Virus record (IMG/VR): IMGVR_UViG_3300042341_000193
Span: 1-64,000 of that record
DNA from: a virus
Strand: one strand, 5' to 3'
Length of the DNA stretch: 64,000 nt
Of this stretch, positions 43,449 to 55,044 are shown piece by piece (the first letter of the stretch is position 1; each line of letters begins with the position of its first letter). Both the position numbers and the translations under genes were made by a program. A model generated the notes under the pieces. That model was not told where the DNA came from. It searched no databases and was given only the letters and a program-made list of their open reading frames with translations.

Positions 43449-44141
43449 TTACTTATTGATGCTTAAATTTTTATCAAATGTCTGATCTATATAAGATACT
43501 AGCTTTTCTAATGATTTACTGTTACGTAAGCTCTTATATACTAAATTTTCTATCCCGTATTCTCCGGTCTGTTTTAGACCTATTTTGCGGTATTTTCGTA
43601 ATAATTTTAGAACTTTTTGAGCCATTTCGAAGTCGTTTTGATTCAAAACATACCTGATTAAATTATCCCAGTACTCGTACTGCTTTTCGATGCTTTTACG
43701 GTCTATTTTGCCACTATAGTTCTTTGGCTCGCGTATCCAGCTATTAGTTTTAAGACTCCACGCTGAACTTACAGTCGGACGAGTTTGATCTTCTGTTCCG
43801 GGCTCTACAGGAATACCTCTGATATTGATTTGAAATTTTTCTTTAAACAGTAATCGTTTAGTGTCCAACAATTCTTCCACTTCTTGATCACACTGTATTT
43901 TACCATAGTCTATAATTAGATGCAGATCAAGATCGCTTTGCTCGGTATAGTGATAAGTGACTTGACCTCCGGTTATTTGTACATCGATAACAGGAACATC
44001 GATATCTATAAATTCTCTAAATTTTTCTGCAATCTGTAACAGCTTAACTTTAACTTCGGGGCGCAGTTGTATACCATCCCATAGTTTGGGATTTAATCGA
44101 TCATGTTCCTCGTAGCCCTTGGTAAATTCAATCATTCGCAT
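43449..44141 (-). CDS. Nucleotidyltransferase-fold protein
   Basis: A 230-aa protein. The block VTYHYTEQSDLDLHLIIDYG matches the pol-beta-like nucleotidyltransferase motif (a DLDLH metal-binding pair), preceded by VIDVQITGG. The C-terminal half is helical. Related proteins are widespread in T4-like phages without defined targets. It is a single gene with a terminator on its 3' side. Confidence 0.72.
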   Translation of the reverse strand: MRMIEFTKGYEEHDRLNPKLWDGIQLRPEVKVKLLQIAEKFREFIDIDVPVIDVQITGGQVTYHYTEQSDLDLHLIIDYGKIQCDQEVEELLDTKRLLFKEKFQINIRGIPVEPGTEDQTRPTVSSAWSLKTNSWIREPKNYSGKIDRKSIEKQYEYWDNLIRYVLNQNDFEMAQKVLKLLRKYRKIGLKQTGEYGIENLVYKSLRNSKSLEKLVSYIDQTFDKNLSINK

Positions 44142-44170: not shown

Positions 44171-44731
44171 ATGATTGAACAAAATTATAGAGGTTATCTT
44201 TTAGCAGCTCATCCTAGACGACAGGAACCGATTCTTCGTAAAGGAGTATTGCTAATATTAGATCATGATGCAACCGGGGCTATAGGACTCCAGATCAATA
44301 AACCATTTACAAATGATATCACGTTTCAAACTGTAATGCAGAATGTAGGCTTACATACAGATCAAGACCAGCCTTTATACAACGGCGGTCAAGAGTCAAC
44401 TAATAGAATACATGTAATACATAGTCTAGACTGGTATACATCTAACACTACTAAAGTTACAAATCGAATTGGAGTAAGTCATGATGTTTCAGTTCTTGCC
44501 GCAATAAGCAAGGGAGAAGGTCCTGAACATTTCAGAGTAGTTGCAGGATTTACACGTTGGTTGCCCGGACACATTGAAGGGGAAGTTGCAGGAAAAGAAC
44601 CTTGGCATTCATGGAGTTCATGGAGTTATGCTCCTGCTGAAGTCGAAACTGTATTTGGATCAGATGATATTGACCAGTGGCACAAAGTTATAGCTGAATC
44701 AGGTCGTTTACAAATTGCAAATTGGTTTTAA
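44171..44731 (+). CDS. AlgH/YqgE family (UPF0301) protein
   Basis: A 186-aa protein. It opens with NYRGYLLAAHP, then FRKGV-like (ILRKGVLLILDHDATGAIGL), QINKPF, LYNGGQ and RVVAGFTRWLPGHIEGEV, and closes with the W-containing tail. This matches bacterial YqgE (AlgH), a conserved family of poorly known, possibly regulatory function. It converges on the helicase gene with a 4-bp overlap of 3' ends. Confidence 0.88.
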   Translation: MIEQNYRGYLLAAHPRRQEPILRKGVLLILDHDATGAIGLQINKPFTNDITFQTVMQNVGLHTDQDQPLYNGGQESTNRIHVIHSLDWYTSNTTKVTNRIGVSHDVSVLAAISKGEGPEHFRVVAGFTRWLPGHIEGEVAGKEPWHSWSSWSYAPAEVETVFGSDDIDQWHKVIAESGRLQIANWF

Positions 44732-46200
44732 TCTTTTTCAGGATTTAAATTAGCCAACATACTTCTAATGTCGGCAACACCCTTGGCGTGTTTATTTTTA
44801 CTAACAGCTACACCTTTTGTAGGATCAATTGGAATAATTTCTCCAGTTTCGGGATCAGTAGTAGTTGACACTGTGCTGGTCCTTTTTAGGCCTGCATAGA
44901 CACTACTTCCGCCACCCTGTTGCCGTTGCTGACTGAAACTGCCTTCTTGCTCATCTTCACCTAGGTCGCTAATACGCAATGTATCTACATTAAACTCTAG
45001 ATCAACTTTTTGCCCAACACCACTAGAACTACGTGTCTTCATAAACTGTATTTGATACCGCCCACGTTCTTTCATAGCACGTGACGTAAAGATACCGATA
45101 ACATTATCCGCCGTCATAATCTTACTCAATCCGCCCGAGATGTGGCTGTGATCAAACTCAATTTCTTCAACAGCACTACGGTTTAACTGTGACGCTGTGA
45201 CTGTGATACATTGTGTTTCCATAGCCAAGTTACGAATTTCTTCCGACACATACTTGTCCTTAACGAACAGGTCACTTGGGCTAACTTTAACACTCAACGG
45301 CATCATCAAGTCCAAATAGTCAATTAGAATAACGTCGGGCTTGCAACCTTTCTTGACCTGATACTCTTTCAAGTAGGCACGGATATCGTTACAGTTCTTG
45401 CCCGATGGCATATACTTAACCTGTAAGTTACCACTCTTCTTGCCCAACATCTTGACCTTGAGTTCAACGTCGTCGATGTTCTTAAAGATCTCTCGAGTTG
45501 TAATACCTGTCATCATACTATCGAGTCGCATACCTACGAGGCCTTCGGCTAATTCAAATGTAAGATATAAGACATTAAGTCCAGCTAGTGCCCAGTTCAC
45601 TCCTAAGTTGGCTAAGAACAAACTCTTGCCGCCACCTGATCCAGCACAGAAGATATTCAGTTCACCTCGGTTAAATCCGCCGTATAATTTCTTATCAATG
45701 CTGGGCCATCCTGTGCTGATCTGCCCATTGCCATCTTTAAGTTTAGTCAGACGTGCTCTGGGATCTTCAAAGTAATCTGTACCCATATCTTTGTTTAGAG
45801 ATATCTGTATAGCATCCTTAATTAGTTTTTCAACTGGACCGTAGTCTCCGGACTCTAACAAATCACTAGACTCGATAATTGCCCTTTCTAGTCCTTTGTG
45901 TCTGCTAAAGTTTTCAAACTCATTCATTAACCATTCATAGTTTTCTCTGGGCAATGCAACTGGGTTATACTGACTTCTTGTAGATGCGTTGACGATATTG
46001 GCCTCGGGCATTACCTTGTATTCATCTACATATTTTGTAATGAACTCTGCACTTTCTTGCAGTCGCTGATCAAAGTTTTTGGGATCAAAAATATTTTGAC
46101 AACGTACAAACGTCTCAGCATCGCTTAGAAACATTTCCAAGTACAGCTTTTGCACTTCAAAGTCATAATTGGGTTTTTGTGGTTTTTCTTTTTTATTCAT
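44728..46200 (-). CDS. gp41: Replicative DNA helicase (gp41/DnaB type)
   Basis: A 490-aa protein. The N-terminal 150 residues are the helical collar domain. The RecA-like core has Walker A AGSGGGKS (about 187-194), Walker B DVILIDYLDL and a TASQLNRSA sensor-like motif. A Gln/Gly linker and C-terminal tail (EDEQEGSFSQQRQQGGGSSV) may contact other replisome proteins. It unwinds DNA 5'-to-3' with the adjacent primase. Confidence 0.92.
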   Translation of the reverse strand: MNKKEKPQKPNYDFEVQKLYLEMFLSDAETFVRCQNIFDPKNFDQRLQESAEFITKYVDEYKVMPEANIVNASTRSQYNPVALPRENYEWLMNEFENFSRHKGLERAIIESSDLLESGDYGPVEKLIKDAIQISLNKDMGTDYFEDPRARLTKLKDGNGQISTGWPSIDKKLYGGFNRGELNIFCAGSGGGKSLFLANLGVNWALAGLNVLYLTFELAEGLVGMRLDSMMTGITTREIFKNIDDVELKVKMLGKKSGNLQVKYMPSGKNCNDIRAYLKEYQVKKGCKPDVILIDYLDLMMPLSVKVSPSDLFVKDKYVSEEIRNLAMETQCITVTASQLNRSAVEEIEFDHSHISGGLSKIMTADNVIGIFTSRAMKERGRYQIQFMKTRSSSGVGQKVDLEFNVDTLRISDLGEDEQEGSFSQQRQQGGGSSVYAGLKRTSTVSTTTDPETGEIIPIDPTKGVAVSKNKHAKGVADIRSMLANLNPEKD

Positions 46201-47197
46201 CTCTTAACGCTTCTAGTTTCTTCTTCATTAGATTTATTTTTATCTCGCCCGCAACCTTGTAGTGCAAGATTGTGGCTAACACATACAGTCGTCCATATTT
46301 CTTTACAGCATCTGCTACATCTTTGACGTCATCGCCCCACGGAGGCAAACTAGCACTCCAGCCATTGGTTATTGCTGATTTGAGCATCTTGGCACCGGGG
46401 CGATCTCTGTCTGGTACTACTATAATTTCTTTTCCTAATCCAGTCAATCTTGCAATCTGGGCATCGTTAGGCTCGTTCGTCATAATGGCTACGCCATCTA
46501 TAGCTATAGCATCAAATTGTCCTTCTACGACTATGACGCATTGACGATTCCACCCTTGACGATCCAAATTAAAAACATATCCACTTTGACTATCTGTCAA
46601 GTACTTAGGGTTGCCGGGATTGATTTTTCTGCCAGTGTATCCTATTACCTTTCCATCTTGATAAAACGGTATTAGTACTCTATCTACATAGCCCGATGCA
46701 GGACTCCACATCCAATTGTACCAATCGAGCTCCATACCCCTACTTAAAATGTATTCTACTATCTTGCCAATGTCTTCTGCTACATCGGGCAAGTACCCGG
46801 TATTAATCCATTCCATTACAGACATTGTGCCATCGGGCAAGGGTTTTTCTAATAATACTAAATTTAGTGCTTTCTTAAGAACGGGCTGGTCATCTTTGAT
46901 CTTGAGTGCCGCAAGATTAAGTTTACCTATGTCTATCTCATTCATGCCTATCCATTGAAATAGGCTTTTGGTATTCTTGCTTAGAATTTTACCAGGAGTC
47001 CATCCTGCGGCAAATCCACAATTGAAACAATGATATACAAACCCGTCATTCTCTACTCTAATACCGCCACGCAGTTTTTCATCTTGACGTTCTCCTCTGT
47101 GATGACAGCAGGGAGCATTAAAACTGGTCCATCCACCGGATGTAAGTTTCCTCTTAGAAGGCAGTAATGTCAGTAATGCAGATTGTATATCGTTCAC
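46193..47197 (-). CDS. gp61: DNA primase (gp61 type)
   Basis: A 334-aa protein. The zinc ligands are in PCCHHRGER (Cys30/31, His32/33) and HCFNCGF (Cys57/60). The Toprim core is visible as VIVVEGQFDAIAIDGV with PDRDRPGAKM (metal-binding DxD). It makes primers for lagging-strand synthesis with the helicase. It overlaps the helicase gene by 8 bp. Confidence 0.92.
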   Translation of the reverse strand: MNDIQSALLTLLPSKRKLTSGGWTSFNAPCCHHRGERQDEKLRGGIRVENDGFVYHCFNCGFAAGWTPGKILSKNTKSLFQWIGMNEIDIGKLNLAALKIKDDQPVLKKALNLVLLEKPLPDGTMSVMEWINTGYLPDVAEDIGKIVEYILSRGMELDWYNWMWSPASGYVDRVLIPFYQDGKVIGYTGRKINPGNPKYLTDSQSGYVFNLDRQGWNRQCVIVVEGQFDAIAIDGVAIMTNEPNDAQIARLTGLGKEIIVVPDRDRPGAKMLKSAITNGWSASLPPWGDDVKDVADAVKKYGRLYVLATILHYKVAGEIKINLMKKKLEALRDE

Positions 47198-47206
47198 ATA
47201 TACAGT

Positions 47207-48043
47207 TTAGCTTCTGTAAAGTGCTTTGTCAAACGATCCGAAGAAACTAGGATTATCATTATTAGATTCTGCAGGTGCAGTTCCAGGAACATGTAGAATT
47301 CTAATATAGGTATAGACACCATTAAAGTTAATCGAATCTATTCCGGTAAATCCAGTATAAGTCTTGGTAACGATGTTAGAATAATTTCCACTTGATCCCG
47401 GAGTGTTGTCCAGGGTTCCTTGAATGTATACGGTCCCCTTATATCCGGTCATGTACATGGCTAATGTGTGCAATGCGCTATTACCATTGTATTCTGGGTT
47501 AGCATAGATGTTTCCACTCTTATGCTCATACTTCTGTATATCGTCGTTGTATGTAATATTAAACGTGTTTATAGTGGTGCTGTCTTTGAGAACAGGAAAT
47601 ACTTCAGAACTTAGATGCAGGGTTCCTGCCATTCCGTAGTAAGTATTAGAATAAGTTGGGAGATAGGCTCCATCAGATTCTCTAAGTTTAATTGTATATT
47701 GATAACTGGTTCTATCTAAATCTAATGTATCACTCTCATTAAGAGTTAGTATAGCTAATCCCTTGGTTGAAGTAGTTGCTACATCTAGTACTTCGATTTG
47801 TTTTTCAACTATTAATCTCTGATTGATAGCATCAAACATACTGAATACAAATGTTTGCGTGTTGTAGATTCTAACATTTTTTTGGTCGCTATTTTTAAAC
47901 TGAATTCTAACTTGATTTTTGATACCTTTTTGTATCTTTAGGTCTCGCTGGTACATAACCTGGTTTACTCCTCTTACAGTAGCGTCCAAATCTAATGTTA
48001 CATCGAGTTTGTAATTATATAAATAGACTGGTAAATTTTGCAT
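47207..48043 (-). CDS. Baseplate/structural-like protein
   Basis: A 278-aa beta-rich protein. The N-terminal half (IQKGIKNQVRIQFKNSDQKN, YTIKLRESDGAYLPTYSNT) resembles the Ig-like N-terminal domains of phage baseplate upper proteins. The C-terminal half is Gly/Asn-rich (AMYMTGYKGTVYIQGTLDNT). The role is inferred from composition. A minus-strand AATAAATA late-type box lies directly upstream. Confidence 0.58.
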   Translation of the reverse strand: MQNLPVYLYNYKLDVTLDLDATVRGVNQVMYQRDLKIQKGIKNQVRIQFKNSDQKNVRIYNTQTFVFSMFDAINQRLIVEKQIEVLDVATTSTKGLAILTLNESDTLDLDRTSYQYTIKLRESDGAYLPTYSNTYYGMAGTLHLSSEVFPVLKDSTTINTFNITYNDDIQKYEHKSGNIYANPEYNGNSALHTLAMYMTGYKGTVYIQGTLDNTPGSSGNYSNIVTKTYTGFTGIDSINFNGVYTYIRILHVPGTAPAESNNDNPSFFGSFDKALYRS

Positions 48044-48063: not shown

Positions 48064-48432
48064 ATGAGAGACCAGTTCCAAGAAAACTTTCCGTTCATAA
48101 CCTGCTTAAAATCCAATGATAAGGAATATGTAGGTATTGTTATTAACTTTGATGATTATGTTGCTAGCATCTACGATCTATCTATGATCGTAGGAGTCGA
48201 GGAACGACAGATTTTCCTAGAAATGGGTGAAGTCTGGTGGTGGGAAAGTAACAGAAAAATACCCATAAACATTTTTCTTAAAAAAGAAATGCATGTATTC
48301 CGACCCTTTATAAAAACTTTTAATGTAAAAGACATAGAGTTAGTATTTGGTCCTAGTGTTAATCTAAGCGAAATTGCTGAAAAGAGAGTAAAACGTAAAT
48401 CTATTCAGCTAATAAGGAATGCGAGGAAGTAA
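48064..48432 (+). CDS. 122-aa conserved T4-like phage protein, function unknown
   Basis: A compact alpha/beta protein (MRDQFQENFPFITCLKSNDK) with an acidic W-rich centre (GEVWWWESNRKIPINIFLKK) and a basic C-terminal tail (KRVKRKSIQLIRN). I associate it with marine T4-like phages. Its 3' end overlaps the DnaE-like gene on the opposite strand by 32 bp. Confidence 0.72.
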   Translation: MRDQFQENFPFITCLKSNDKEYVGIVINFDDYVASIYDLSMIVGVEERQIFLEMGEVWWWESNRKIPINIFLKKEMHVFRPFIKTFNVKDIELVFGPSVNLSEIAEKRVKRKSIQLIRNARK

Positions 48433-48991
48433 GACCTTCGCAAATTAAGTTCATTTGAACTACAATAGCTGCCGCATATGCTATAGCGTGAGCTTTTTTA
48501 AAATAATACTCATTACCCGCAGGCTTTTGCCAAATTTCTGCGTTTACAGTATTCCAGTCTTGTCCAATTAGATAGCGTTTTGCCGGTCTAATCATAGCTA
48601 ATACCGCAGCCAATTGACTTATGCTATTTGGCAACATCTGTCTTAGAATTGATCCGTGACCGTTCACATGGAACAACATATTAGTGAAATCGTCCTGTTG
48701 TAAAAGATCCCATAGTGGTTCTTGATTTAATAATTTTAAGAGATGTTCTTCATCTCGTACATCTTTGTAAATTCCAACATTTAATAGGTCAATCTTAAAA
48801 TACCCGCGGTTTTCAGCTTCTTTATAGTCAAAGCTAGCAGTATCAGTTATGGAATTGTACGGGATAGAATGACAATATACGCCAGTATTGTGCTTTTTAA
48901 AAGTTCCATTATCTTTAATAGCCGCTGGTACATGCTCGATAATTTTGAGAATTTTTGTTCTATCAGCAAAGTCGATATCAATATCCGGCAT
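48401..48991 (-). CDS. Miniature DnaE-like (C-family DNA polymerase core) protein
   Basis: A 196-aa protein with several landmarks of bacterial DNA polymerase III alpha in the right order: the palm acidic motif PDIDIDF at the N-terminus, FKIDLLNV (cf. the KFDFLGL third-aspartate motif), NMLFHVNGHGSILRQMLPNS (cf. the VFQLESRGM region), LAAVLAMIRPAK and FKKAHAIAYAAAIV (cf. FNKSHAVAYG). The PHP, fingers and OB domains are missing. The three catalytic-type aspartates look present, so activity is possible. It is in the ADP-heptose operon, overlapping the kinase gene by 14 bp. Confidence 0.72.
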   Translation of the reverse strand: MPDIDIDFADRTKILKIIEHVPAAIKDNGTFKKHNTGVYCHSIPYNSITDTASFDYKEAENRGYFKIDLLNVGIYKDVRDEEHLLKLLNQEPLWDLLQQDDFTNMLFHVNGHGSILRQMLPNSISQLAAVLAMIRPAKRYLIGQDWNTVNAEIWQKPAGNEYYFKKAHAIAYAAAIVVQMNLICEGLTSSHSLLAE

Positions 48992-49745
48992 TTCTAATCT
49001 CGTCGTATGATGGTGCGTAATTTCCTAAATGTTGTACAGTTAATCCTGCGGCAACGTTAGCAAACATTATAGCTTTCTTTATATCATTTGTATATAGGTA
49101 TTGAGTGGTTAGTGCCGCCAAAAAAGTATCACCACATCCACAAACATCACTTACTTCTACTTGTTTACTTGGATGCACTTCGTCCCATAGTCTAGCACCT
49201 TTGCTACCTAATGTAACAATTAACCCAGCACACTCGCTTGTTAATCTGCTATACTCTAGTTCATTAATCTTAACCCATGCACCTTGAAAACGTTCTAAGT
49301 CAGTCTTTTTAGTGTCTATGAACACTGGTATGCTCAAAGCAACGAGTTCTTCGATTAATTCGTAGCTAACTGTACCTTTGTTGTAGTCACTGATCACAAC
49401 TGCGTCGTAAATCGCAGGAATAGCCGAAGCAAATTCAATAGGATTAGATTTAACATCATTGTCAATTCTTACAATGTGTTGTTTACTTTTGGAATCGATT
49501 AATCTGGTCTTAACACTTGTTTCTCCGCATAGGTATGTAACTTCACAGCCCAGTGCTTCAAGATTGAGTTTGACATTACGAGCCATGCCTGCTCTTTCTT
49601 CCTTAGAGCTATATTTGAATACAGGAACAGGTGCCTCGGGACTTATTCTGTCAACAGTTCCAAACTGATAAACATCTAAGCAATCATCCCCGATTAATAA
49701 TATTCTGAATGGTGTTGGTAGTTGAGTATTCGCCGACTCTGTCAT
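48978..49745 (-). CDS. hldE1: Heptose-7-phosphate kinase, HldE N-terminal type (PfkB family)
   Basis: A 255-aa protein. The N-terminal ILLIGDDCLDVYQFGTVDRI and SPEAPVPVF are characteristic of the HldE (RfaE) kinase domain, and VCGCGDTFLAALTTQYL carries the PfkB catalytic Asp. It would phosphorylate D-glycero-manno-heptose 7-phosphate. In bacteria this and the next function are one fused HldE; here they are separate genes overlapping by 62 bp. Start at ATG 49745. Confidence 0.85.
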   Translation of the reverse strand: MTESANTQLPTPFRILLIGDDCLDVYQFGTVDRISPEAPVPVFKYSSKEERAGMARNVKLNLEALGCEVTYLCGETSVKTRLIDSKSKQHIVRIDNDVKSNPIEFASAIPAIYDAVVISDYNKGTVSYELIEELVALSIPVFIDTKKTDLERFQGAWVKINELEYSRLTSECAGLIVTLGSKGARLWDEVHPSKQVEVSDVCGCGDTFLAALTTQYLYTNDIKKAIMFANVAAGLTVQHLGNYAPSYDEIRNAGY

Positions 49746-50088
49746 AATAGATCACTTCTTTACAATATTCTTCTGCTGTGCTAGGTCTATCTTTTTTCCA
49801 GTCGCTGCCTTTTACATACACGTCTGGTTTCCAGCTTTTCATTATTTCTATAAGTTGTTCTTTGCTGTCAAAAAACAATACACTGTCAACTGCTTTTAAA
49901 TTTTCTAAATGAAATTTACGATCTTCTTGGTTGTTAATAGGACGATCATCACCTTTTAACTCTTGCACTCTACGATCAGTATCAATCACAACCAGTACCG
50001 CATCTCCTTTGCTTTTAGCAAAGTTGAGCATTTCAATATGACCTCGATGCAGAATATCAAATGTTCCGTTAACCATTACTCGGGTCAT
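49684..50088 (-). CDS. hldE2: Heptose-1-phosphate adenylyltransferase, HldE C-terminal type
   Basis: A 134-aa protein with the nucleotidyltransferase signature VNGTFDILHRGHIEML (HxGH) and SDWKKDRPSTAE, ending in STTNTIQNI (cf. the STS-type motif). It would transfer AMP to heptose 1-phosphate to make ADP-heptose. It overlaps the epimerase gene by 20 bp and the kinase gene by 62 bp. Confidence 0.87.
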   Translation of the reverse strand: MTRVMVNGTFDILHRGHIEMLNFAKSKGDAVLVVIDTDRRVQELKGDDRPINNQEDRKFHLENLKAVDSVLFFDSKEQLIEIMKSWKPDVYVKGSDWKKDRPSTAEEYCKEVIYYDRVGEYSTTNTIQNIINRG

Positions 50089-50857
50089 AATACTTTCTTA
50101 GGTTAGTTACATCAGCACATGTGTATGTTTGATAATGTGCTTTAACATTATCAGGCATAGGAATATATTCAACTCTACATTTCATTCCTTCTGCAATTGT
50201 TCGAGCAACGTTATCAAACGATGTAGCGCGACCTGTACCGGCATTCCAAATACCAGATTCAGTTACGTTAAAAAACTTTTTATGAATACTAACTACTTCA
50301 TGTACAGAAATAAAATCACGTTTGTAATTCTCAGAATTTTCAAATAGCTTGATAACTCCGGTAGCTTCTGCCTGCTTGGTAAACTTATGATGAGGGCTAG
50401 ACTGATCACCTTTATGATCTTCATGAGGTCCATACACGTTGAAATACCTAAATCCCTGGACTGTTATGTTAGACCATTTTTCTCTAAATCCACTTACATA
50501 TCTTTCAAAAAGATATTTGCTCCATGCATATGGACTTAGCAAATGAACAGGTGCATTTTCGTTAAATTCTTTTCCTAGTCCATATACGCTTGCAGAACTT
50601 GCATATTGCAAATTTACATTGTTTGCCTGACATTGATTGATAACAAGTCTACTAAAATCATAATTCTGATCTAGCATCTTGTCTACATCCATTTCAGTAG
50701 TAGACGAATTTGCTCCTAAATGTATGCACCAGTCTAAGCCTCTAAAATCTGGAAGTTCTTCTCCCCATTCAAAAAGAGACAGTTCGTGTTCGTCATTTAG
50801 TGCATTGACCATATTTTGACCAATAAAACCTTTATACCCTGTAATCAAAATTTTCAT
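50069..50857 (-). CDS. hldD: ADP-heptose epimerase-like SDR (HldD type)
   Basis: A 262-aa protein with the NAD(P)-binding Rossmann motif TGYKGFIGQNM, an SSASVYG block and the catalytic YAWSK (Tyr110, Lys114), followed by FRYFNVYGPHEDHKGDQSS, where HldD has GxRYFNVYGPxExHKGxMAS. This last stretch is the best evidence for the ADP-L-glycero-D-manno-heptose 6-epimerase assignment. It overlaps the cupin gene by 4 bp. Confidence 0.87.
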   Translation of the reverse strand: MKILITGYKGFIGQNMVNALNDEHELSLFEWGEELPDFRGLDWCIHLGANSSTTEMDVDKMLDQNYDFSRLVINQCQANNVNLQYASSASVYGLGKEFNENAPVHLLSPYAWSKYLFERYVSGFREKWSNITVQGFRYFNVYGPHEDHKGDQSSPHHKFTKQAEATGVIKLFENSENYKRDFISVHEVVSIHKKFFNVTESGIWNAGTGRATSFDNVARTIAEGMKCRVEYIPMPDNVKAHYQTYTCADVTNLRKYYDPSNG

Positions 50858-51210
50858 TTCTGACTGTCTCCTTTAGCAACTCGATAATTGTCTTCGACAC
50901 TGTCCGGTGTGCTAACTTCGATAATGGTCCCTTCTTCGAGACAAATCAGTTGATGTGGTACCAGTGGATTATTATGCCACACAGAGCCTGGTTTTAATAC
51001 TTCTAAATATTCATCCGCTGTCTTCGTATCAATAAATCTAACTTGAAATTCACCGCTTAACACATACCAGGTTTCTTCCTTTACAGAATGGAAATGCATA
51101 CTAAATCTAGCACCGGTATTAAACTTTAGTAATTTTCCGCAATACTTGTCGTTTGTTGCCCAAATTAATTCGTGACCCCAACCTTTTTCTACAAAACCTT
51201 CTAATCTCAT
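50854..51210 (-). CDS. Cupin-fold protein, sugar-isomerase-like
   Basis: A 118-aa single cupin: KGWGHELIWATNDKYCGKLL, then HFHSVKEETWYVLSGEFQV (metal His/Glu set) and PLVPHQLICLEEGTIIEVST. This matches the short mannose-6-phosphate isomerase/sugar cupin group found with nucleotide-sugar genes. It is the head of the ADP-heptose gene set, overlapping both neighbours by 4 bp. Confidence 0.78.
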   Translation of the reverse strand: MRLEGFVEKGWGHELIWATNDKYCGKLLKFNTGARFSMHFHSVKEETWYVLSGEFQVRFIDTKTADEYLEVLKPGSVWHNNPLVPHQLICLEEGTIIEVSTPDSVEDNYRVAKGDSQK

Positions 51211-51810: not shown

Positions 51811-52053
51811 TTATGTGCCCCACCTCAACAAAAACATAGTTAAGTCTTTAGAATCTTTAAATGCAAAAGTAGTGTTGCCAAACATGCTGTGCATAACCCA
51901 AATCTTACCATTCATGCCTTCCCAAGTTTTAGGAGTTTGGTAGGACCACCCACCGGTTCCTATATGTTCGTGGCACCATTGTTCCATGTCTGGATGTTGC
52001 CAATAACGTTCTTTACCAAATGTAATCCAGCTAGCAGTATCACTCATGACCAC
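51811..52053 (-). CDS. 80-aa array protein ending in KDLTMFLLRW
   Basis: The C-terminus FAFKDSKDLTMFLLRWGT is shared with the next two genes. The N-terminal part has WCHEHIGTGGWSY, comparable to WCRERFGNSGSRW in the next gene. It overlaps the next gene by 10 bp. Confidence 0.68.
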   Translation of the reverse strand: MVMSDTASWITFGKERYWQHPDMEQWCHEHIGTGGWSYQTPKTWEGMNGKIWVMHSMFGNTTFAFKDSKDLTMFLLRWGT

Positions 52054-52325
52054 CTCAGAATGAATAAGGTCAAATCCTTTTCATCTTTAAAATAAAATTT
52101 GTCTTTCTTTTCAAACCAACGACTGCCACTATTTCCAAATCGTTCTCTGCACCAAGTCTGTGCCTGTTCATTTAGATCCAAGGGAGTGCTTTCTGTTCGA
52201 GCCATTTCAATCCAGGTATATTTCATACCCCATCCGCCAGCTTCTCCCGTTTTCATAGGTCGCAGTTCGTGTTCTGAACCGATGTTCAAGCCGCCGACAA
52301 TAGAACTAATACTGGTCATGACCAC
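52044..52325 (-). CDS. 93-aa array protein ending in KDLTLFILRW
   Basis: The C-terminus YFKDEKDLTLFILRWS and the WCRERFGNSGSRWFEKK block align with its neighbours. The N-terminal 45 residues are unique. It overlaps the following gene by 10 bp, so the array is translationally coupled. Confidence 0.68.
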   Translation of the reverse strand: MVMTSISSIVGGLNIGSEHELRPMKTGEAGGWGMKYTWIEMARTESTPLDLNEQAQTWCRERFGNSGSRWFEKKDKFYFKDEKDLTLFILRWS

Positions 52326-52516
52326 CTCAACATAAACATAGTAAGATCTCGATCTTGTTTAAAATAATATTCAATAGAAGTACTGTGATGAACTACATTC
52401 CATTTACCTTTGAATTTGCCCAAGGTCTTTCCTAACCATTCATCAACTTCTCTGGTACTGTGCAAAAGATTAACTTTGGTCTTATATGGCCATAATTCTT
52501 TTTTAAGTCGTCTCAT
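52316..52516 (-). CDS. 66-aa array protein ending in RDLTMFMLRW
   Basis: The C-terminus YYFKQDRDLTMFMLRWS matches the paralogues, and VDEWLGKTLGKFKGKWNVVH is the counterpart of their WC(H/R)E block. It overlaps the DUF551-like gene by 4 bp. Confidence 0.68.
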   Translation of the reverse strand: MRRLKKELWPYKTKVNLLHSTREVDEWLGKTLGKFKGKWNVVHHSTSIEYYFKQDRDLTMFMLRWS

Positions 52517-52863
52517 GTTAGTGCTTTCACAATTTCATATTGACGCAGTGCTTCTTGGACATTGTTCCAAGCGATAGCCAATGCTGGATTAGACTTTGGT
52601 GCTTTTCTATATCTCACAGGAGGATCACTATCGACCCACTGCTCTGGATTATCTTTGGTCCAGTAATAGACATTAGCCCAATGACTATGACAGGTGCTGT
52701 CAGTACGCCATTCTCCCTTGCCGTTCATGCCTCCAGTATGATTCCAATAAAAGTAATCTACACCACAAGTATCGTCAGCTAGGGTTACGGTCCTGAAGCC
52801 CATATAATAGCCGCTTTTATCAGGCTGCTGATCTGCTGTATGGTGCCATATGGAAGTCTTCAT
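52513..52863 (-). CDS. 116-aa DUF551-like protein
   Basis: Pattern WHHTADQQPDKSGYYMGF... DYFYWNHTGG... NVYYWTKDNPEQW... PPVRYRKAPKSN resembles the short Trp/Tyr-rich DUF551 proteins of phages (P..G.Y, YW, W-W). It overlaps the upstream gene by 44 bp; a later start would remove the first Trp block. The function is unknown. Confidence 0.6.
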   Translation of the reverse strand: MKTSIWHHTADQQPDKSGYYMGFRTVTLADDTCGVDYFYWNHTGGMNGKGEWRTDSTCHSHWANVYYWTKDNPEQWVDSDPPVRYRKAPKSNPALAIAWNNVQEALRQYEIVKALT

Positions 52864-53128
52864 AGTCTAAAAAAGATGTTGGAGTTTCTGATAGAAGGAG
52901 TGCGTCCCCGTACTTTAATTTTAACATCATTTCCTGTTTTTCGCAAGTGGTTGTTATCTTGATGTAGGGATTTTCGTTTTGATATCGCCAGCGTGTTCCA
53001 TTTGAAGTTTCAAAATCTTGCCATTCGGGCATAACGACTTCCACTTCGCAACCCAACCCAAATAGGAATGTTGCATCAATTTCTGTAGCATCGGGCTTAC
53101 TCAGTGTCCAAAGTGTTTTAGTAATCAT
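52820..53128 (-). CDS. 102-aa array-region protein
   Basis: MITKTLWTLSKPDATEIDAT. The central part YIKITTTCEKQEMMLKLKYG resembles the C-terminal M-x-L-K-(Y/F)-G of its neighbour YSTMFALKFGSG, suggesting a diverged paralogue with an added C-terminal tail. It overlaps its neighbour by 4 bp. Confidence 0.62.
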   Translation of the reverse strand: MITKTLWTLSKPDATEIDATFLFGLGCEVEVVMPEWQDFETSNGTRWRYQNENPYIKITTTCEKQEMMLKLKYGDALLLSETPTSFLDYEDFHMAPYSRSAA

Positions 53129-53376
53129 ACTCCGTTGCCGCTCCCAAACTTTAATGCAAACATAGTTGAATATTTCTCACCCTTGTTCATAAACTTAAAT
53201 GTTACATATTCATCGGCTTGAAATACTGCCCATTCAAAATCTAGTCCCATAATCAATCCCTGATCCTTACACCATTCTGCTAACTGGATAGCGTGGTTAC
53301 TAGCGTGGTGTAGTTTCATAAAATTAAGATGTCTGTATTGAACTATAGTGTCGAACGGTATTCGAATTTCAATCAT
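53125..53376 (-). CDS. 83-aa array protein ending in YSTMFALKFG
   Basis: MIEIRIPFDTIVQYRHLNFM, with a WCKDQGLIMGLDFEWAVF block equivalent to WCHEHIG / WCRERFG and the C-terminus KGEKYSTMFALKFGSG. It is therefore another member of the array. It overlaps the following gene by 8 bp. Confidence 0.65.
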   Translation of the reverse strand: MIEIRIPFDTIVQYRHLNFMKLHHASNHAIQLAEWCKDQGLIMGLDFEWAVFQADEYVTFKFMNKGEKYSTMFALKFGSGNGV

Positions 53377-54321: not shown

Positions 54322-54782
54322 TCGTAATCTTTTCGTTGCTTCTTGTCAAAACCCATTTTGTCAAACAGTTCGTCGATGTCTTTCTTAGTCATCATGCTAG
54401 CTAACGTCTTAATGTCATCTAGCTTCCATGCAGGATAAATTTCAGCTAACAGTTTTTCAATCTTATTTGCTTTGCCCTTTTTACCTGCGGCAAGATAAGG
54501 ATGATACATGTTAGAACCAATACCAGTTGCTGCAAATAATTTCCACAACAAGGGTCTATGATTCTTACTTAATTCCCAATGATTTTTATTAACATACTCG
54601 TTAGTCCTTTCTAGGAACCATTCTTGCAATGATTGATCACCTTGCACATTAGCAGTATACCTCATTAAGATGTAAGGACTGAATGCTTTCTTTTCCTCGT
54701 CGGTGAGGTTTTCGTAAAAGTCATAGTTGCGACTGTCTACTGCATTTAGTTCACGCTTAATATCAAGTTTTGCGGTTGCCAT
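54318..54782 (-). CDS. 154-aa helical protein, possible clamp-loader small subunit (gp62-like)
   Basis: Helical throughout, with FSPYILMRYTANVQGDQSLQ, a WELSKNHRPLLWKLFAATGI block and KIEKLLAEIYPAWKLDDIKT. The order of a short N-terminus, an aromatic helical core and a final helix bundle recalls T4 gp62. Similarity is weak by eye, so this is a suggestion only. It overlaps both neighbours. Confidence 0.5.
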   Translation of the reverse strand: MATAKLDIKRELNAVDSRNYDFYENLTDEEKKAFSPYILMRYTANVQGDQSLQEWFLERTNEYVNKNHWELSKNHRPLLWKLFAATGIGSNMYHPYLAAGKKGKANKIEKLLAEIYPAWKLDDIKTLASMMTKKDIDELFDKMGFDKKQRKDYE

Positions 54783-55044
54783 ATCTTTTTTCGTAATCTT
54801 CTGTAAGGTAGTATGTTATTTTAACACGGTCCAGGGCGGCTTGTAAAGCAGTATCGGACTTGGCAGCACGATGAATATCACCCCACAATTTACTTTCCAT
54901 TATTTCGTCATGCAATGATGCCCTAGGTGATCCTGTTCCGATTCCTACATTGCCGGAACTGTCTATCCGCATTTTTTCAGTAGAACCTGCATTTCTAGCA
55001 TAAACAGTTTTACCCTTATCCGGACTTTCAAAAATTAGTGACAT
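54763..55044 (-). CDS. 93-aa protein with embedded tail-fibre motif
   Basis: It begins MSLIFESPDKGKTVYARNAG, an opening I associate with a small conserved protein of marine T4-like phages, then carries EKMRIDSSGNVGIGTGSPRA, a phrase otherwise typical of phage fibre and bacterial beta-helix proteins. It returns to a helical domain (SKLWGDIHRAAKSDTALQAA). It probably acquired the fibre motif by recombination. The function is unknown. Confidence 0.7.
   Translation of the reverse strand: MSLIFESPDKGKTVYARNAGSTEKMRIDSSGNVGIGTGSPRASLHDEIMESKLWGDIHRAAKSDTALQAALDRVKITYYLTEDYEKRYGNRKT

Follow-up and report, generated by a model that had tools for sequence, protein, structure and literature searches.

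Genes at the locus

The window, by which we mean the whole stretch of DNA analysed here (64,000 nucleotides from a virus record that is itself a genome fragment of 107 kb), carries on its minus strand an open reading frame of 196 codons at positions 48401-48991. The frame begins with ATG and shares 14 nt with the 3′ end of a PfkB-like kinase gene upstream (Table 1). Its product matches PHROG 11778, annotated as 'DNA polymerase', over its full length (residues 3-188; E = 4.8e-67), and also phrog_405, the full-length phage DnaE (E = 1.9e-6). A Pfam search with this protein sequence alone returned no significant match, and the Pfam model of the DnaE fingers gave weak matches in 45 of 56 relatives. 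AlphaFold predicted the single chain with a pLDDT of 92 and a pTM of 0.82. The 15 best Foldseek matches of this model in the PDB were all alpha subunits of C-family polymerases (DnaE or PolC), at probabilities of up to 1.00; the TM-scores were modest and did not exceed 0.48. We regard it as confirmed that the frame encodes a real, strongly conserved phage protein with the palm features of C-family (DnaE) polymerases, in agreement with an earlier note on this DNA that had described a miniature C-family core with the DnaE landmarks in order. We refer to the protein as the C-half, and to the product of a partner gene described below as the N-half.

Table 1. Features of the locus in window coordinates, with the corresponding residues of E. 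coli DnaE
Feature	Position	Strand	Correspondence, match or context
C-half of split minimal Pol III alpha	48401..48991	(-)	196 aa, phrog_11778; Mg-binding palm half and shortened fingers
PDIDIDF, C-half residues 2-8			E. coli DnaE P400-F406
D3-I-D5-I-D7 codons	48971..48985	(-)	E. coli DnaE D401/D403/D405; first two catalytic aspartates
KHxxGV, C-half residues 33-38			E. coli DnaE K510-H511
H34-N-T-G37	48881..48892	(-)	E. coli GKH(511)AGG, by profile alignment; thumb gone just before
FKID, C-half residues 65-68			E. coli DnaE K553/D555
K66-I-D68	48788..48796	(-)	E. coli K553 and third catalytic aspartate D555
'VLAMIRPAK' fingers segment, C-half residues 130-138			E. coli DnaE R639
R135-P-A-K138	48578..48589	(-)	Fingers motif, E. 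coli FR(639)PGP
FKKAHAIAYA, C-half residues 164-173			E. coli DnaE K758/H760
F164-K-K-A-H168-A-I-A-Y-A	48473..48502	(-)	E. coli FNK(758)SH(760)SAAYA
Small convergent gene, phrog_11637	48064..48432	(+)	E 1.5e-33; overlaps 3′ end of C-half gene
phrog_14467-like 'virion structural protein'	47207..48043	(-)	Conserved next neighbour, 75/88 loci
DNA primase	46193..47197	(-)	phrog_47, E 2.2e-39; 83/88 loci
DnaB/gp41-like replicative helicase	44728..46200	(-)	PF03796, E 5.6e-16; phrog_19, E 3e-73; 76/88 loci
Sugar genes: PfkB kinase, cytidylyltransferase-like, epimerase, cupin	48978..51210	(-)	Pfam; upstream of C-half gene

The small convergent gene lies downstream of the C-half gene in 87 of the 88 loci with enough sequence; we assign no function to it and consider it a candidate third partner of the split polymerase. 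Most annotated phages have a similar gene order, which runs from recombination genes, a DnaQ-like exonuclease and the uvsW helicase through the C-half and the convergent gene to the structural protein, primase and gp41; the order in phage RAS14 departs from it. Because the downstream primase and helicase context is conserved, we place the C-half gene in a replication cluster. The earlier note had located it within an ADP-heptose operon, which is true of the window but not general: only 18 of 111 loci carry the sugar kinase, transferase and cupin genes upstream, and it is the replication cluster that is widespread. The sugar genes are lineage-specific upstream neighbours outside the polymerase system and their position is a local accident; a functional tie of the C-half to sugar metabolism was rejected on the same count.

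Active-site motifs and missing domains

The C-half keeps the DnaE motifs in order, with the palm aspartates followed by the K-x-D strand, shortened fingers and the KxH helix (for residue roles and domain boundaries in E. coli we rely on established knowledge of DnaE). Among 64 representatives below 85% identity, D3, D5, D7, H34, G37, P44, K66, D68, R135, P136, K138 and H168 are invariant, and K165 and K166 are kept in 63; the acidic residues of PDIDIDF and the third aspartate, to which the earlier note had drawn attention, are among the invariant positions. The invariance of the metal-binding and nucleotide-binding residues argues for an active enzyme over a decoy.

Most polymerase domains are indeed lacking, as had been noticed from the sequence. 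The PHP domain, thumb, RRAMGKK helix, clamp-binding region and OB domain are all absent from the 196 aa, and the GS motif sits on a separate protein, so that the C-half alone is not a complete family-C polymerase. Thumb, clamp-binding region and RRAMGKK helix are parts of a normal Pol III alpha. In the C-half, the helix after the D403 equivalent passes directly to GKH, and D5 and H34 are separated by 29 residues, compared with 108 between D403 and H511 in E. coli, where the thumb is included. The distance from the RP motif to the KxH helix is about 30 residues, and about 120, including RRAMGKK, in E. coli.

A distant gene of related phages encodes the other half of the palm

A search of 11 complete phages with PF07733, the Pfam palm model, found a second locus in all 11, matching the front of the 260-position profile (mostly positions 20-96) and located between 14 kb and hundreds of kb from the C-half gene. 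The N-half encoded there, about 170 aa in length, is phrog_11127 (five of the second-locus proteins were scanned) and carries the GxGRGSS nucleotide-binding motif, of which G-x-G-R-G-S is invariant in 59 representatives. In all 59 the same [ED]-F motif lies at the C-terminus, give or take a few residues; the N-half of Alishewanella phage Slickus01, ending in 'FAEL', is the sole divergent relative seen. Its AlphaFold model (pLDDT 87) has confident structure matches only to C-family polymerases. In hhalign comparisons with E. coli DnaE, the N-half aligns up to residue 393 (F-L-N; E = 3e-10) and the C-half from residue 399 (E = 1e-4), which indicates that the two genes divide one palm domain, at the loop between its nucleotide-binding part and its metal-binding strand. 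No fusion of the halves occurred among the fetched loci, none of which held both. Judged by these alignments, the window protein covers the palm's C-terminal half alone, the N-terminal half being encoded by a distant second gene. The earlier reading was therefore right about the C-family core and missed both the half-domain nature of the protein and its partner.

Distribution and co-occurrence

Homologues in phages, for which the earlier note had proposed a search, are plentiful. Searches by tblastn with the C-half matched 63 phage records, including Rak2-like, PBECO4-like and PA5oct-like phages, Atu_ph07, Phosso, SCTP-2 and other large phages. In IMG/VR, a relative is encoded by at least 556 stretches; scanning twice more, with divergent single sequences, added few loci. 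No relative of the C-half turned up in a profile search of species genomes from bacteria and archaea, 84,980 in all.

The N-half is also listed for 57 of the 60 phage records listed with a C-half. The three others are RAS14, which carries an N-half by PF07733 search, CM1, and PP728206, a 109-kb record that is shorter than its relatives. We did not see the N-half in the 107-kb record of the window; the clade's three largest contigs carry it (270, 207 and 181 kb; E about 1e-40), and the shorter contigs of the clade that were searched gave none. Slickus01 (141 kb) provides an independent test, because it was found by its N-half alone and a C-half was thus predicted and then found, 11 kb away (E = 6e-48) and with all motifs intact.

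A B-family polymerase is present in 11 of 11 complete jumbo phages, in the three large clade contigs and in Slickus01, and was not seen on the 107-kb fragment. Because it is co-resident, the split enzyme is not the sole replicase. In Slickus01, the B-family matches fall in two frames (578 and 322 aa).

Selection on the C-half

The median dN/dS is 0.097 among 202 pairs of C-half sequences at 80-97% identity, the pairs not being independent. Across 119 sequences, catalytic codons exchange freely between GAT and GAC, CAT and CAC, and AAA and AAG without ever altering the residue; at D3, D5 and D7, where the earlier note had asked for a measure of selection, GAT/GAC exchanges are the only changes. 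A dN/dS of about 0.10 combined with purely synonymous change at catalytic codons speaks strongly against a decaying remnant.

Comparison with known systems

For jumbo phages of group 2.2, Iyer et al. independently described a split minimal Pol III alpha in 2021 (PMC7824862), and we match its parts to phrog_11127 and phrog_11778. Compared with that published system, the window comes from an uncultivated phage, shows no partner on the 107-kb fragment and has its C-half after sugar genes. Truncated alpha subunits had been noted before in CBB_328 (172 aa; PMC5259590), the length of which fits the N-half, and in Atu_ph07 gp316 (PMC6102473). Our literature search found no experimental study of the split minimal Pol III alpha. 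Since the split was published in 2021, the main gain from the window is a wider known range and a sharper anatomy; added here are the exact split point, the loss of the thumb, the invariant residues, the analysis of selection, the synteny counts and a 141-kb phage with the pair.

Bacterial DnaE (E. coli Pol III alpha, PDB 2hnh and 5fku; Taq, 4iqj) shares the palm motifs with the two halves together, as well as parts of the fingers, but is one chain of 1160 aa with PHP domain, thumb, full fingers, clamp-binding region and OB domain, all of which the split enzyme is missing. Cellulophaga phage phi19:2 has a full-size DnaE cut between the same two motifs (gp044/gp045, L235:2828-6428; ...FERFLN / LPDIDTDF). 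It differs in that the genes are adjacent, the thumb and RRAMGKK are kept and the long N part has a C-terminal extension (a tail of more than 50 aa). This DnaE does not match the C-half family profile and represents a separate lineage. Two further families, phrog_13169 and phrog_7513, also resemble N parts that end near the same palm site, and together with phi19:2 they suggest that breaks may recur there.

A proposed two-protein active site and its rivals

We favour, with a probability of roughly 60%, the reading that the C-half is the C-terminal subunit of a minimal, thumbless family-C nucleotidyltransferase in which two proteins form one active site and carry out short synthesis beside a B-family replicase. 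Large T4-related phages of group 2.2 would then make a minimal Pol III alpha as two separate proteins. The N-half would give the GxGRGSS nucleotide-binding half of the palm, which holds the nucleotide phosphates, and the window protein the three metal-binding aspartates, the equivalents of K553 and H760 and the shortened fingers; the two would have to meet to build a single active site. The complex would perform short, distributive DNA synthesis, either primer extension or gap filling, beside the phage primase and helicase, and bulk replication would be left to the gp43-type B-family polymerase. The homology, the complementary halves and their co-occurrence, the unchanging active-site residues, the purifying selection, the linkage to primase and helicase and the B-family polymerase of every complete relative searched are shown by the data above; that the proteins associate physically and catalyse a reaction, that their substrate is DNA and that they act at the fork is what we infer. 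The loss of the thumb and clamp-binding region argues for short, distributive synthesis, and linkage to primase and helicase agrees with such a role, short of proof. That a minimal enzyme may fill gaps is illustrated by African swine fever virus DNA polymerase X, a single-chain family X enzyme and very small Pol beta-fold polymerase without the usual DNA-holding domains. Weighing against the reading are the N-half not seen on the 107-kb fragment, TM-scores of no more than 0.48 and the missing thumb, clamp-binding region and RRAMGKK helix. The bolder proposal that this is the smallest known natural C-family enzyme, thumbless, with a two-chain active site and a dedicated job at the fork, and hence that T4-related large phages have a two-polymerase replisome, is tentative and in our judgement falls somewhat short of even odds.

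Because the thumb, clamp-binding region and RRAMGKK helix are absent, templated polymerisation is uncertain, and the main rival gives it up: an active two-subunit nucleotidyltransferase would extend the ends of DNA or RNA by a single nucleotide or a few, as in end or tRNA repair. Invariant catalytic and nucleotide-binding residues in proteins that lack a thumb and further DNA-holding domains, together with the retained Pol beta-like active site, would suit such an enzyme, and related phages encode several enzymes of RNA repair, other Pol beta-fold transferases among them (PMC7824862). We nevertheless consider it unlikely, given that the C-half gene is linked to primase and helicase, not to genes of RNA repair, and that its product retains the fingers elements KxH and RPxK. 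A catalytically dead structural or regulatory subunit of the replisome, whether decoy or scaffold, would account for the extreme reduction in size and the loss of most domains, and the literature search gave no report of activity. Dead enzymes, however, normally lose their metal and nucleotide ligands, and those of both halves are invariant down to about 30% identity, which makes a dead subunit improbable.

The idea of a decayed remnant, raised in the earlier note and here specified as a captured bacterial dnaE, draws on the truncation of the C-half relative to the 1160-aa DnaE and on the wording of the CBB authors, who termed a related protein truncated (PMC5259590). It is contradicted by the low dN/dS and the invariant catalytic codons, on which we reject it as very improbable, as well as by the at least 556 viral stretches that encode a relative, the more than 100 sequences that keep a similar length and an open frame, the conserved synteny and the complementary partner that ends at the matching residue. 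Fractured genes are known in phages, and splicing by a split intein could in principle join the halves into one chain. The B-family polymerase of MIJ3, a phage of the same group, contains a putative split intein (PMC6892783). The N-halves, however, stop 0-2 residues past the DnaE-homologous end, and the C-halves mostly start at the homologous end or with a leader of about 20 residues or fewer; neither half has intein sequence at its end, which leaves no room for one, and we rejected this explanation as scarcely credible.

Two small proteins are enough for a direct test of the split-polymerase hypothesis. If the enzyme is active, it would show how little of the Pol III alpha palm suffices, in a natural two-part form, and many large T4-related phages would use a second, bacterial-type polymerase.

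Other genes in the window

An AlgH/YqgE-like protein (44171-44731 (+); PF02622, E 4.6e-25), unusual for a phage and without a PHROG match, adjoins the helicase gene. Close to it, a 230-aa protein (43449-44141 (-); phrog_36119) has an SDLDLH motif that by eye recalls Pol beta-fold nucleotidyltransferases. Neighbouring small open reading frames at 51811-53376 (-) share a W-C-x-E ... K-D-L-T-x-F-x-L-R-W pattern, again judged by eye, and are possibly tandem paralogues. Amid other small genes, a 93-aa frame (54763-55044 (-)) opens with a tail-fibre repeat motif (MRIDSSGNVGIGT, phrog_18345), to which an unrelated C-terminal part is joined.
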